Below, one piece after another: positions 44,296 to 48,560 of a DNA stretch of 64,000 nucleotides (position 1 is the first letter of the stretch; every line of letters starts with the position of its first letter). The stretch is from Kosakonia oryzae (GTDB lineage Bacteria > Pseudomonadota > Gammaproteobacteria > Enterobacterales > Enterobacteriaceae): NCBI RefSeq assembly GCF_001658025.2, contig NZ_CP014007.2:3534001-3598000 (forward strand), written 5' to 3'. The translations under genes and the position numbers were made by a program. The notes under the pieces are model-generated. The model ran no database searches. It had not been told where the DNA came from and saw only the letters and a program-made list of their open reading frames with translations.

Positions 44296-44754
44296 CTACT
44301 CCTCGCCGCCTTCGTCATCGGCAAACAGCACTTCATCTTCTTTGAACAGGTTGCTCTCCTCCCATTCGATCTCCTCGCTGGCATAATGCACCGGATCAAT
44401 GCCGCAGCACTCTTCCAGCACTTCTTCGGCTTCATCCAGCAACGCAATCGCATCCTGCCAGCAGACCGTGATGTCCGCAGCGGTAAGATCGCCATTATCA
44501 ATCGCCTCAAGTTTCGCTATCGCCAACTCAATATTATGTAAACTCTCCAGCACCAGGCTCACTTCTTCGCCGAGCCCCATACCAGAAATAGCAGCAGCAT
44601 GATCATCACTCAATGCGTCATCGAATTCATCGCCCGCGTTATCCGACAACGCAGATGTTCTGGCAACGGCCAAAAATAACTGTGCACGTTTTTTGAGAAA
44701 ACTTGCTCGTTCTAACGAAAGATCAAACTGTTCAGTGACTACAATATCCATCAT
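44296..44754 (-). CDS. Acidic protein of unknown function
   Basis: A 152-residue, strongly acidic protein I do not recognise, mostly helical by its residue pattern (FDLSLERASFLKKRAQLFLAV, VLESLHNIELAIAKLEA, AIALLDEAEEVLEECCG) and with an Asp/Glu-rich C-terminus. No signal peptide or membrane segment. The start is one of two adjacent ATGs (44754, 44751) with weak ribosome binding sequence. It marks the left end of the stretch between gstB and yliI that has no E. coli K-12 counterpart. Confidence 0.65.
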   Translation of the reverse strand: MMDIVVTEQFDLSLERASFLKKRAQLFLAVARTSALSDNAGDEFDDALSDDHAAAISGMGLGEEVSLVLESLHNIELAIAKLEAIDNGDLTAADITVCWQDAIALLDEAEEVLEECCGIDPVHYASEEIEWEESNLFKEDEVLFADDEGGEE

Positions 44755-44940: not shown

Positions 44941-45843
44941 CTACATTCCCTGGCGTGCAGGGCAAAGCCGGGCGCTGATCCTGCCAGCGACATCGTTGCC
45001 AAAACTGTAATATTTTTCTTTCATGATATCGCCCTCACGCATCATCAAAAATACTTTGCGGGATAAGTTATTATCCTTGATATTGATATATTTGATGCTA
45101 TTTTGCTCATTTCCGAGCGTTGACAGTTTCGGAAAGAAGGAGACATTATCGGAATTTCTCACCATATATCTGATGGTTTCCAGGTCGTTTGAAATACTGC
45201 GCGCATGATTGAGAATCTCCTCACTACCTGGTTCAAGCTGTAAATGTTCTGGCATCGACTTGGTCATAATGAGTTTATGCTTCTTCAAATCTTTGAGTTC
45301 AATAGCTTCATAGCTGGATAACGGATGGCTGATATTCACCCCCAGAACAAATTGCTCTTCATAAAGCTGGGCTTCGAGGAAACGGTCGTTATCAATCGGG
45401 CCAATCAGCAAACCCAGTTGCAATTGCCCTTTATCCAGCATGCTCAATAAATTATCTTCATTAACCTCATGCAATTTGATTTCATTATCGGGAAATTTCT
45501 CTTTAAATACGCTAAATAAATCTTCATGAATGTAGGAACCCAGCGTTGGGGTAATGCCGATATTAATAACGCCAACCGGCTGAAAACGTAGCCAGCGCGC
45601 CATTTCCTGAAGGTTATGAACTTCACGGAGAATATTTTCGATCAGCGGCAACAGATGCAAGCCGGTTGGCGACAGGCTAAAGCCTTTACCTTTGCGGTGC
45701 AGCAGAGGAATGCCTAACTCCTCCTCCAGCTTCTTGATTTGTATGCTGAGGGTCGGTTGTGAAACATCACAGGCCTCGGCAGCTTTCTGGAAATTCATAT
45801 GTTGCACCAACGCTACAAAATATTCCAAATCCTGGGTTCTCAT
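44941..45843 (-). CDS. LysR-family transcriptional regulator (OxyR-like group)
   Basis: A 300-residue LysR-type regulator. N-terminal winged helix (LEYFVALVQHMNFQKAAEACDVSQPTLSIQIKKLEEELG, in pieces) and an effector domain starting near residue 92 (VGVINIGITPTLGSY). By sequence style it is nearest OxyR, but I find only two cysteines (about residue 24 and near the C-terminus), so OxyR-type disulfide sensing is unlikely. ATG 45843 follows GGGAGAG. A+T-rich relative to backbone. It is divergent from the flagellin gene across 820 bases and could regulate it. Confidence 0.88.
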   Translation of the reverse strand: MRTQDLEYFVALVQHMNFQKAAEACDVSQPTLSIQIKKLEEELGIPLLHRKGKGFSLSPTGLHLLPLIENILREVHNLQEMARWLRFQPVGVINIGITPTLGSYIHEDLFSVFKEKFPDNEIKLHEVNEDNLLSMLDKGQLQLGLLIGPIDNDRFLEAQLYEEQFVLGVNISHPLSSYEAIELKDLKKHKLIMTKSMPEHLQLEPGSEEILNHARSISNDLETIRYMVRNSDNVSFFPKLSTLGNEQNSIKYINIKDNNLSRKVFLMMREGDIMKEKYYSFGNDVAGRISARLCPARQGM

Positions 45844-46238
45844 ATTGTCAACTCTCCCGTGCGTAGAAAAAATAAAGAACAAAACACTACAGAGCATAAG
45901 GTTTTTTATGTTTCCAGCGACACAAACAACCTGCCGATGGCATTTAAGTAAATTCTTATGCGTAATTTAATTTAAGGACCTAAAAAGCACTTATCATCAA
46001 TTATTTGTTTTATACACAGAGCTAAATTTACACGTATCAATAATCGCTGTCAGAAGTAAAAACTTTAATCGGTAATTTATATCGTCAAAAACACCATAGA
46101 ATGTAACGATGTTGAAATAGAAAATTTGCTTTTAGTGGTGTTTTTATGACTACTATTTCACCTGTTTTATAATCATGGCATTAACGCGCTGTAAGAACGA
46201 AGAAAACTTACCCGCAGATTTCTTTTAAGCGGAGAATT

Positions 46239-46567: not shown

Positions 46568-46594
46568 TAAAGTTTTATTAATCCCATCCGATAT
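46568..46594 (+). promoter_or_regulatory. Sigma-28 (FliA) promoter of the flagellin gene
   Basis: TAAAGTTT (46568-46575, perfect -35), exactly 11 bases, then TCCGATAT (46587-46594; consensus GCCGATAA). It lies 69 bases before the start codon, giving a leader of about 60 bases. Confidence 0.88.
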
Positions 46595-46662
46595 GATTGA
46601 AGCCCGGCAATATTATCAGGGCATCGCTAATAGATTAATTCTATATTTCTGGAGAAATAAAA

Positions 46663-47568
46663 ATGGCTGTTATTAATACCAACACCTTGTCTTTAACGAC
46701 CCAAAATAACCTGAGCAAATCTCAATCTTCATTAGGCACTTCCATTGAGCGCCTGTCATCCGGTCTGCGTATTAATAGCGCAAAAGATGATGCTGCTGGT
46801 CAGGCAATTGCAAACCGCTTTACATCAAATATTAATGGCCTGTCTGTTGCCGCACGTAACGCCAATGACGGGATCTCACTGGCGCAAACCACTGAAGGCG
46901 CACTGAGCGAAGTCAACAACAACCTGCAACGTATTCGTGACCTGACTGTACAGGCGCAAAACGGTTCAAACTCCGCATCTGACGTTGACTCCATTCAGGC
47001 TGAAGTCAACCAGCGCATGGAAGAGATCAACCGCATCACCACTCAGACCGACTTCAACGGTCTGAAAGTGCTGAACACCGGTTCCGGCGACAGCGTGTAT
47101 AACTTCCAGGTTGGCGCGAAAGATGGCGAAACCATCAGCATTACCGTCAGCAGCAGCGATGCCTTCAACCTCTACAGCACCACCGGCGCAACGGCTTCCA
47201 CCACCGGGCAAATTGTCAACGGCAGCGCGCGTGCCACTGACGCGCACGGCTTCGATGTATTGCAGGGCGTGGTTGATGCTACCGGTGGCACAAACGGCAA
47301 CCCGCTGGCGGATCTGGATACCGCCATCAAAGCGGTGGACAGCGAGCGCAGCCTGCTGGGTGCTTCCCAAAACCGTTTTGAATCCACCATCTCCAACCTG
47401 AATAACACCACCAACAACCTCTCTGCCGCGCGCAGCCGTATTCAGGATTCCGATTACGCGACGGAAGTGTCCAACATGTCGCGCGCACAGATCCTGCAAC
47501 AGGCCGGCAGCTCGGTACTGGCGCAGGCGAACCAGGTACCGCAAACCATGTTGTCGCTGCTGCGTTAA
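46663..47568 (+). CDS. Flagellin, short form (FliC-like)
   Basis: A 301-residue flagellin. The D0/D1 parts are complete at both ends: MAVINTNTLSLTTQNNLSKS at the start, and SNMSRAQILQQAGSSVLAQ near the C-terminus. The TLR5-contact positions R90, L94 and Q97 are present (LQRIRDLTVQA). The middle is only about 100 residues, so the outer D2/D3 domains of E. coli FliC are mostly missing. It is alone here: no fliD, hag or motor genes nearby. It has its own sigma-28 promoter and terminator, so it is an additional flagellin under FliA control from elsewhere in the genome. The start follows CTGGAGAAAT. Confidence 0.93.
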   Translation: MAVINTNTLSLTTQNNLSKSQSSLGTSIERLSSGLRINSAKDDAAGQAIANRFTSNINGLSVAARNANDGISLAQTTEGALSEVNNNLQRIRDLTVQAQNGSNSASDVDSIQAEVNQRMEEINRITTQTDFNGLKVLNTGSGDSVYNFQVGAKDGETISITVSSSDAFNLYSTTGATASTTGQIVNGSARATDAHGFDVLQGVVDATGGTNGNPLADLDTAIKAVDSERSLLGASQNRFESTISNLNNTTNNLSAARSRIQDSDYATEVSNMSRAQILQQAGSSVLAQANQVPQTMLSLLR

Positions 47569-47693
47569 GCAGGCTAAGGTCCGTTACCCTCCTTCATAGC
47601 GGATCGTTTTAAACGTTATTTCAGGTAATACATCCCCGCTTTGCCATGAGGGCGGGTGATGCCGCATAACTGTCTATTGAGAAATATTTTTAT

Positions 47694-47727
47694 CCCGCAA
47701 TGTTAGATGGCATTGCGGGATTTTTTT
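47694..47727 (+). terminator. Terminator of the flagellin gene
   Basis: CCCGCAATG (47694-47702) pairs with CATTGCGGG (47711-47719) followed by A and seven T. Confidence 0.9.
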
Positions 47728-47771
47728 CGCCTGTTTTATTTTCCCCGGCGCACAGCATTATTATCCTGTGG

Positions 47772-47804
47772 AAATAAAAAAGGATGCAATGAACCATTGC
47801 ATCC
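47772..47804 (-). terminator. Terminator of the CheZ-like gene
   Basis: Ten-base perfect stem, GGATGCAATG (47782-47791) and CATTGCATCC (47795-47804), with a three-base loop; on the minus strand it is followed by TTTTTTATTT. It lies about 70 bases after the CheZ-like stop. Confidence 0.85.
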
Positions 47805-47875
47805 AGAATAAATAACAGCAAGTAAAACAGCTTTTACATCACTTGAGGGTTTTCACAGTGCAGCACAATTACCGA

Positions 47876-48493
47876 TTACAGACCAAGGCTATCCAGTAAT
47901 TCATCAATATCATCTTGCCTTGAGGATTCAGGCAAATGTGCGGCGTGTTCTTTCTCTCTGGTCAGCGCCGCCCGGCTTTCCTGCGGTACGCTGTCTAATA
48001 AGACCGCGAGGAATTGTTTTTCTAAATTCTCCAGCAGCGCCATCATGCGCACAATAATGCGCGCGGTGGTATCCGGAAAATCCTGCGCCAGCATAATATC
48101 GCGCAGAGATTTTTTAGTCGCCTCGGTACAAAGCGGCACCGCGTCAAGCCAGCCGCGCGTTGCGCGGGCAAGCGCCATCATACTGTCGATACCCTCACTC
48201 TCTTTAACGCCATCCCATTGCAACAGTAGCTGGCTGGCTTCTTTGCTGAGCCGCTCCTGCAACGGCTGCGTCTGCTCAATCAAATTAAGCGTTTTGCCGG
48301 AGGCCTGCGCCGTCAAATCGACAACATATTGCAAACGGCTTCGCGCATCAGGAATAGCGTGGGCGATTTCAGCAATAGTAATATCATGCCCCAGCTCACG
48401 CAGGCTGGTTCTTAACATCCGGGTCACATTGCCAATGCGGGCAATCAATTCATAAATATCGGTTGCCGCATGCGGAACAGCATGCACATTCAT
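47876..48493 (-). CDS. CheZ-like protein with altered catalytic residue
   Basis: A 205-residue CheZ paralog (E. coli CheZ is 214). Family landmarks: IARIGNVTRMLRTSLRELG near the N-terminus, AIPDARSRLQYVV, and the C-terminal CheY-binding peptide DDIDELLDSLGL. The catalytic stretch aligns AQDFPDTTARIIVRMM with E. coli AQDFQDLTGQVIKRMM. D141 matches D143, but the catalytic Gln147 position is Arg145 (codon CGC). CheZ needs that glutamine to dephosphorylate CheY-P, so this copy may bind CheY-P without cleaving it. Strong start site GGAGAGG, own sigma-28 promoter and terminator. Convergent with the extra flagellin. Confidence 0.9.
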   Translation of the reverse strand: MNVHAVPHAATDIYELIARIGNVTRMLRTSLRELGHDITIAEIAHAIPDARSRLQYVVDLTAQASGKTLNLIEQTQPLQERLSKEASQLLLQWDGVKESEGIDSMMALARATRGWLDAVPLCTEATKKSLRDIMLAQDFPDTTARIIVRMMALLENLEKQFLAVLLDSVPQESRAALTREKEHAAHLPESSRQDDIDELLDSLGL

Positions 48494-48533
48494 TATTACC
48501 TCTCCTTTACGCCATCTTTTCTCAGATATTCAG

Positions 48534-48560
48534 TTATCGGCAATTTATCCGCACACTTAA
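48534..48560 (-). promoter_or_regulatory. Sigma-28 (FliA) promoter of the CheZ-like gene
   Basis: On the minus strand TTAAGTGT (48553-48560; consensus TAAAGTTT, 6 of 8), 11-base spacer, then a perfect GCCGATAA (48534-48541). It lies 40 bases before the start codon. Confidence 0.85.

Follow-up and report, generated by a model that had tools for sequence, protein, structure and literature searches.

Why would a flagellin gene and a CheZ-type gene face each other in a stretch of chromosome that holds no other flagellar gene, and what could such a pair contribute to a bacterium whose flagellar clusters lie elsewhere? The window that we analyzed is the whole 64-kb stretch in which the pair lies, positions 3534001 to 3598000 of the 5.42-Mb single-contig genome of Kosakonia oryzae. 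The initial annotation had described the two genes as standing alone between gstB and yliI, each with its own sigma-28 promoter and terminator, and had proposed that they join the flagellar regulon of the main cluster and alter the filament and the termination of the chemotactic signal together. With moderate confidence, we read the locus instead as a vertically kept island of four genes tied to the flag-1 system, with a flagellin gene that is probably driven by FliA and a maintained CheZ that is probably a pseudo-phosphatase.

RESULTS

A four-gene island between gstB and yliI

The features of the locus are as follows.

44296 to 44754, minus strand: orf44, island gene; acidic protein of about 152 aa of no known family
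44941 to 45843, minus strand: lysR, island gene; LysR-type regulator (HTH_1 and LysR_substrate), divergent from the flagellin gene
46041 to 46067, minus strand: weaker sigma-28-like site aimed at lysR (13/16)
46568 to 46594, plus strand: putative sigma-28-like promoter of the flagellin gene, TAAAGTTT-N11-TCCGATAT (14/16)
46663 to 47568, plus strand: flagellin, 301 aa (Pfam domains); flag-1 type by identity to flag-1 fliC
47692 to 47721, plus strand: predicted intrinsic terminator of the flagellin gene (13 pairs)
47782 to 47804, minus strand: predicted intrinsic terminator of cheZ (10 pairs)
47876 to 48493, minus strand: CheZ paralogue, 205 aa (PF04344), with an altered active site
48059 to 48085, minus strand: QDFPDTTAR codons of cheZ; D143 (E. 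coli numbering) kept, Gln147 replaced by Arg
48059 to 48061, minus strand: Arg codon 145 of cheZ, at the place of the catalytic Gln147
48534 to 48560, minus strand: putative sigma-28-like promoter of cheZ, TTAAGTGT-N11-GCCGATAA (14/16)

The Pfam matches confirm a convergent flagellin and CheZ-like gene, and by eye none of the 85 open reading frames of at least 150 aa in the window is a further flagellar gene. The pair is not alone, however, as had been supposed: lysR and orf44 share its exact distribution, and the unit placed between gstB and yliI consists of orf44, lysR, flagellin, and cheZ. The gene order dacC, gstB, orf44, lysR, flagellin, cheZ, yliI, bssR was found in 7 of 15 Kosakonia genomes, and this co-occurrence of the pair in the same order, the check proposed at the outset, rules out an assembly accident. 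The locus of Kosakonia sacchari SP1 has the same genes, with a cheZ that is 96% identical. The names gstB and yliI are those of the initial annotation, and neither gene had an NCBIfam match above the cut-off; orf50 was identified as BssR by NCBIfam with 156.4 bits, under the cut-off of 191.

The regulator has both domains of its family (HTH_1, 1.7e-20; LysR_substrate, 1.3e-25). Its best solved-structure matches were OxyR, and it scored 189.3 bits against the OxyR model, below the cut-off of 329. Cys27 and Cys296 are its only cysteines when it is read from 45849, so that it lacks the redox cysteines of OxyR, which we take to be C199/C208. The divergent region between lysR and the flagellin gene comprises 813 bases with 32% GC and several invariant blocks, and it is the orientation of the two genes that suggests a possible control of the flagellin by LysR. 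The orf44 product has a pI of 4.05 and gave only noise and no match of note against Pfam and NCBIfam.

Conserved sigma-28-like sites and separate terminators

We scanned the 64-kb window for sigma-28-like sites with spacers of 10 to 12 bases, scoring each out of 16 against an assumed consensus. The flagellin and cheZ sites, which start exactly at 46568 (plus) and 48560 (minus), both reached 14/16 with 11-base spacers, in agreement with the near-consensus promoters proposed initially. They were the sole 14/16 sites in the window, and five Markov-1 shuffles of the 64 kb gave one site of 14 and seven of 13 in total. Across the seven island genomes, the flagellin site was invariant in 8 of 8 columns of the -35 element, which sits inside an invariant run of 22 bases, the longest between lysR and the flagellin gene, and in 6 of 8 columns of the -10 element; for the cheZ site, the corresponding numbers were 7 of 8 and 8 of 8. 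Judged by the assumed consensus, a sigma-28-type promoter is thus conserved upstream of both genes, consistent with membership in a FliA regulon. The 13/16 site directed at lysR was invariant in 8 of 8 columns of the -35 element, 1 of 11 of the spacer, and 4 of 8 of the -10 element, but the seven sites of this score in the shuffles lower the weight that it can carry, and it may have arisen by chance. The two separate terminators were likewise found. Since terminator-like sites numbered 11 in the scanned region versus 7.3 expected, it is the position and strength of these two that count.

The flagellin is of the flag-1 type

The flagellin is full length, with Flagellin_N (2e-43) and Flagellin_C (8.7e-31) domains, and matched the NCBIfam FliC/FljB subfamily PRK06819 with 472.6 bits (cut-off, 387). 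Elsewhere in the genome, the flag-1 genes, including three tandem fliC genes and a cheZ, lie within the stretch 2090000 to 2158825, and a second flagellar cluster lies at 1212371 to 1262333 and appears complete, having flhDC, fliA, che, and fliC of its own (gene names in both clusters were read by eye from the translations). The island flagellin is 85 to 87% identical to the three flag-1 FliC proteins and 61 to 64% identical to the FliC of the second system. Sigma-28-like sites in the flag-1 stretch scored 14 to 15, and none of at least 14 was present in the second-cluster stretch. In addition, one genome, G009, carries the island together with a flag-1 CheZ but no second-system CheZ. Taken together, the flagellin identity, the site scores, and G009 make it most likely that the island belongs with flag-1 rather than with the second system and speak against a satellite of the latter. 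The proposed membership in the regulon of the main cluster therefore stands as probable membership in the flag-1 FliA regulon, but the second flagellar cluster of the host had been missed. As a separate observation, the lack of a site of at least 14/16 in the second-cluster stretch could mean that the FliA of that cluster reads another promoter sequence.

In a quick tree of 31 flagellins, the seven island flagellins formed one clade (SH-aLRT, 98) among the flag-1-type sequences, which disfavors a recent copy or gene conversion of flag-1 fliC. Twenty-six fixed differences separate them from 10 flag-1 copies of G000, G008, G009, and G011. Of the 21 possible pairings of the island genomes, we computed dN/dS for 11, and three of these 11 compare one clade with the other; the ratio was 0 to 0.041 for the flagellin, the most constrained between clades of the island genes measured against the flanks; for lysR, it was 0 to 0.085 with one pair saturated. 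The island flagellin would be expected to assemble with the flag-1 hook and cap.

An altered active site in a maintained CheZ

The island CheZ matched PF04344 over its whole length (1.5e-45; residues 15 to 204 of 205, profile positions 2 to 202 of 203) and scored 175.7 bits against the NCBIfam equivalog PRK11166, below the cut-off of 257. Its residues 8 to 204 align with 12 to 213 of E. coli CheZ (1kmi_Z), and by hand count along this alignment, D143 and Q147 correspond to residues 141 and 145 of the window protein. The conserved phosphatase motif of CheZ is given as DXXXQ in passages of PMC7750401, and passages of PMC3035606 describe Gln147 as orienting the attacking water. In all seven island CheZs, D143 is kept and an arginine stands at the place of Q147, within an invariant DFPDTTARII; the arginine codon differs synonymously between the clades (CGC/CGG), and the residue is the same. 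The motif was DFQDLTGQV[IV] in all 24 other CheZs examined, namely, 23 of the 26 other Kosakonia CheZs and one from another genus. The same helix carries L142T, G144A, and Q140P (window numbering) beside the exchange of glutamine for arginine.

Other parts of the protein have fared differently. The N-terminal helices are retained, and the C-terminal CheY-binding tail keeps D-x-LL-x-SLG, with Q195 changed to D and the last residue from F to L. The hairpin-tip aromatics are gone: WDDWF of 1kmi_Z aligns with WDGVK, WDGIK, WQQHN, or WLLHD. According to passages of PMC7750401, the two hairpin-tip aromatics bind CheA-short; they are given there as Phe-97 and Trp-98 and are W97 and F98 by count in 1kmi_Z. 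Between the two island clades, identity was 90% in the active helix, 81% and 91% in the N-terminal helices, and 81% in the tail, compared with 25 to 65% elsewhere (hairpin tip, 50%; linker, 25%), and the hairpin tip is only 20% like that of canonical CheZ. In a tree of 31 CheZs, the island proteins formed one clade (100/100) apart from the flag-1 and second-system types, and the branch between island and canonical CheZ was long (1.74 + 1.03 changes per column from one side to the other). Twenty-six residues are fixed in the seven island CheZs and differ from those of the two other CheZs that this genome encodes (three in all), one of flag-1 and one of the second system, each of which keeps Q147.

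For the island cheZ, dN/dS was 0.12 to 0.27 (11 of 21 pairs), indicating that the gene is maintained; for flag-1 cheZ, it was 0 to 0.033 in 20 of 21 pairs and 0.096 in one pair of very low dS, and the island gene is thus under looser constraint. Neither cheZ nor the flagellin gene has an internal stop in any of the seven copies. Purifying selection together with a fixed altered motif points to a maintained protein with an altered active site and not to a decaying copy. From the sequence alone, there is a strong case that phosphatase activity has been lost, so that signal termination, the step that these genes had been expected to change, is probably not the activity of this protein, even if an arginine at position 147 might retain some. 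Among the matches listed in our literature search, titles and abstract openings mentioned no CheZ without the glutamine and nothing on this island.

Distribution and age of the island

Close relatives of orf44, lysR, and the island cheZ occurred in exactly the same 7 of the 15 Kosakonia genomes; the island flagellin was present there at 95 to 100% identity and lysR at 88 to 100%, with lysR relatives of at most 38% in the rest. In the eight island-less genomes, gstB adjoins yliI, with a gap of 56 to 169 bases in seven; in the eighth, G003, extra copies of the yliI end also lie between the two genes (L124:7453-7766 holds two extra copies of the last 37 yliI codons, behind yliI). In wider samples, a search for cheZ at an E value of ≤1e-44 gave matches in 3 genomes of 392 Enterobacteriaceae (G000, G009, and G234), and the match in G234 looks by eye like a normal CheZ of a che operon, with Q147 present. 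Among 394 genomes of the order, the window's own cheZ was the single match. For lysR, a threshold of ≤1e-75 left 2 of the 392 (G000 and G009). This family sample includes six of the 15 Kosakonia genomes examined above. The pattern QDFxDxTx[R or S], which covers R or S alone at the glutamine place, occurred at 25 places in 24 of the 392 family genomes and at 6 places in 6 of 295 genomes of the order. Only the matches in G000 and G009 were CheZ, and none of the remainder (23 in the family, 5 in the order) was CheZ by tblastn; the reversed control pattern gave 12 and 8 matches, respectively, so most matches are due to chance.

When mapped onto a tree built from four flanking proteins, the distribution of the island requires two changes. 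The island-less genomes G005 and G001 fall together with three genomes that have the island (support, 100/100), and in both, the match to the window covers the gstB end plus 45 or 33 bases of the 3' end of orf44 and then jumps to the yliI end. This stub points to a deletion: most simply, the G005/G001 lineage once had the island and lost it later; insertion of the island beside a preexisting stretch that became the end of orf44 would be a less simple explanation. In the three between-clade pairs, dS was 1.03 to 1.28 for cheZ, 0.75 to 0.83 for the flagellin, and about 1.7 or saturated for lysR, compared with 0.97 to 1.07 for the flanking yliI. The values are not uniform, being lower than yliI for the flagellin and higher for lysR, but their magnitude fits an old island that has been inherited vertically.

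DISCUSSION

CheZ proteins are regarded as phosphatases in which the DXXXQ motif is highly conserved, and to our knowledge, no member of the family has been recognized as a binder or protector of CheY-P instead of an eraser. We propose, tentatively and at slightly less than even confidence, that the island CheZ has become such a protein and that FliA transcribes its gene along with that of an alternative flagellin; filament and signal lifetime would then change together. FliA (sigma-28) would transcribe the flagellin gene and cheZ, and perhaps lysR-orf44, when the class-3 flagellar genes are on, and LysR, encoded divergently, may act on the flagellin promoter from the 813-base region as an additional regulator. 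The product would be a fourth flag-1-type flagellin, built into the flag-1 filament either as a minor component or as an alternative one. The replacement of Gln147 by arginine, the loss of the aromatics that dock on CheA-short, and the preserved tail together suggest a cytoplasmic protein, away from the receptor patch, which probably binds CheY-P without erasing the signal, alone or as a heterodimer with CheZ, and with little or no hydrolysis. In competition with true CheZ, it could lengthen or buffer the life of CheY-P and so reset the tumble bias. Tumbling might go up, if CheY-P is shielded from CheZ, or down, if the island protein competes with FliM; we favor the former.

It is unlikely, to our minds, that the island protein, with arginine in place of glutamine, still works as a CheY-P phosphatase and simply lowers CheY-P as an unlocalized extra copy. 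The retention of D143, of the active helix, and of the CheY-binding tail would fit such a role, as would the purifying selection on the gene, but the missing glutamine is the water-orienting residue (passages of PMC3035606), it is kept in 24 of 24 other CheZs, and its exchange is accompanied by three further changes in the same helix. We find it rather improbable that the protein has left CheY for another response regulator or for a structural role, for example, as a partner of LysR or orf44; the long branch to canonical CheZ and the 26 fixed residues unlike both other CheZs of this genome are what such a move could produce, but the preserved D-x-LL-x-SLG tail and D143 and the sigma-28-like control that cheZ has in common with the flagellin speak against it. 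Very improbable is a decaying duplicate, a spare flagellin and cheZ kept by chance on their way out, for although the island is missing from eight of the 15 genomes, two of which retain a stub suggestive of deletion, and its CheZ has lost a catalytic residue under looser constraint than flag-1 cheZ, the low dN/dS values, the lack of internal stops, and the invariance of the altered motif and the promoter elements all oppose it. Our preferred reading of a maintained, flag-1-tied island with a probable pseudo-phosphatase has against it that the island is dispensable to many Kosakonia, being absent from 8 of the 15 genomes.

Should the binder proposal hold, the island cheZ would be a natural separation-of-function allele, selected beside two CheZs that have the glutamine and apparently under class-3 regulation. 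It raises the testable questions of whether nature uses CheY-P binding without hydrolysis to tune tumble bias and whether plant-associated bacteria inherit a change of the filament jointly with a tuning of the signal.

The island resembles known systems in part. Salmonella fljBA is an unlinked second flagellin with an adjacent regulator; the Kosakonia island likewise has an unlinked extra flagellin with a regulator alongside, but its regulator is of the LysR type and a CheZ paralogue is present. The island flagellin is of the same length as flag-1 FliC (300 to 301 aa) with the same type of sigma-28-like promoter but is a single gene far from the cluster and divergent from lysR. The island CheZ shares its family, D143, N-terminal helices, and CheY-binding tail with E. 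coli and flag-1 CheZ and differs from the former by Q147R, G146A, L144T, and the loss of W97/F98 (E. coli numbering); unlike canonical cheZ, its gene is outside any che operon. Passages of PMC7526173 describe flag-3b loci from fifteen strains of Kosakonia, and passages of PMC6125372 the flagellar systems KFS1 and KFS2 in K. radicincitans; neither set of passages mentions the island. We tentatively read the second cluster of this genome as flag-3b. Like the island, flag-3b and KFS2 provide an extra flagellin and an extra cheZ beyond flag-1, but they are large clusters, and the CheZ of the second cluster here keeps Q147.

Other flagellin genes also stand alone in these genomes. One of 481 aa lies away from any cluster at G000:C1:3131536-3132981 (L021:11536-12981), with a sigma-28-like site of 14/16 and a 12-base spacer at 3131472, and similar open frames of 485 to 492 aa are present in 14 of the 15 Kosakonia genomes, this genome included. 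Lone flagellins with 77% and 72% identity to the island flagellin were found at other chromosomal sites in G004 (L125:8756-9661) and G003 (L126:9084-9992), and in the 18 kb around them, neither lysR nor cheZ of the island had a match. Finally, two long open reading frames lie beside the triple fliC at G000:C1:2105696-2109346 (1216 aa) and 2109406-2113092 (1228 aa), the place at which passages of PMC7526173 report flagellin-modification islands of enterobacteria.
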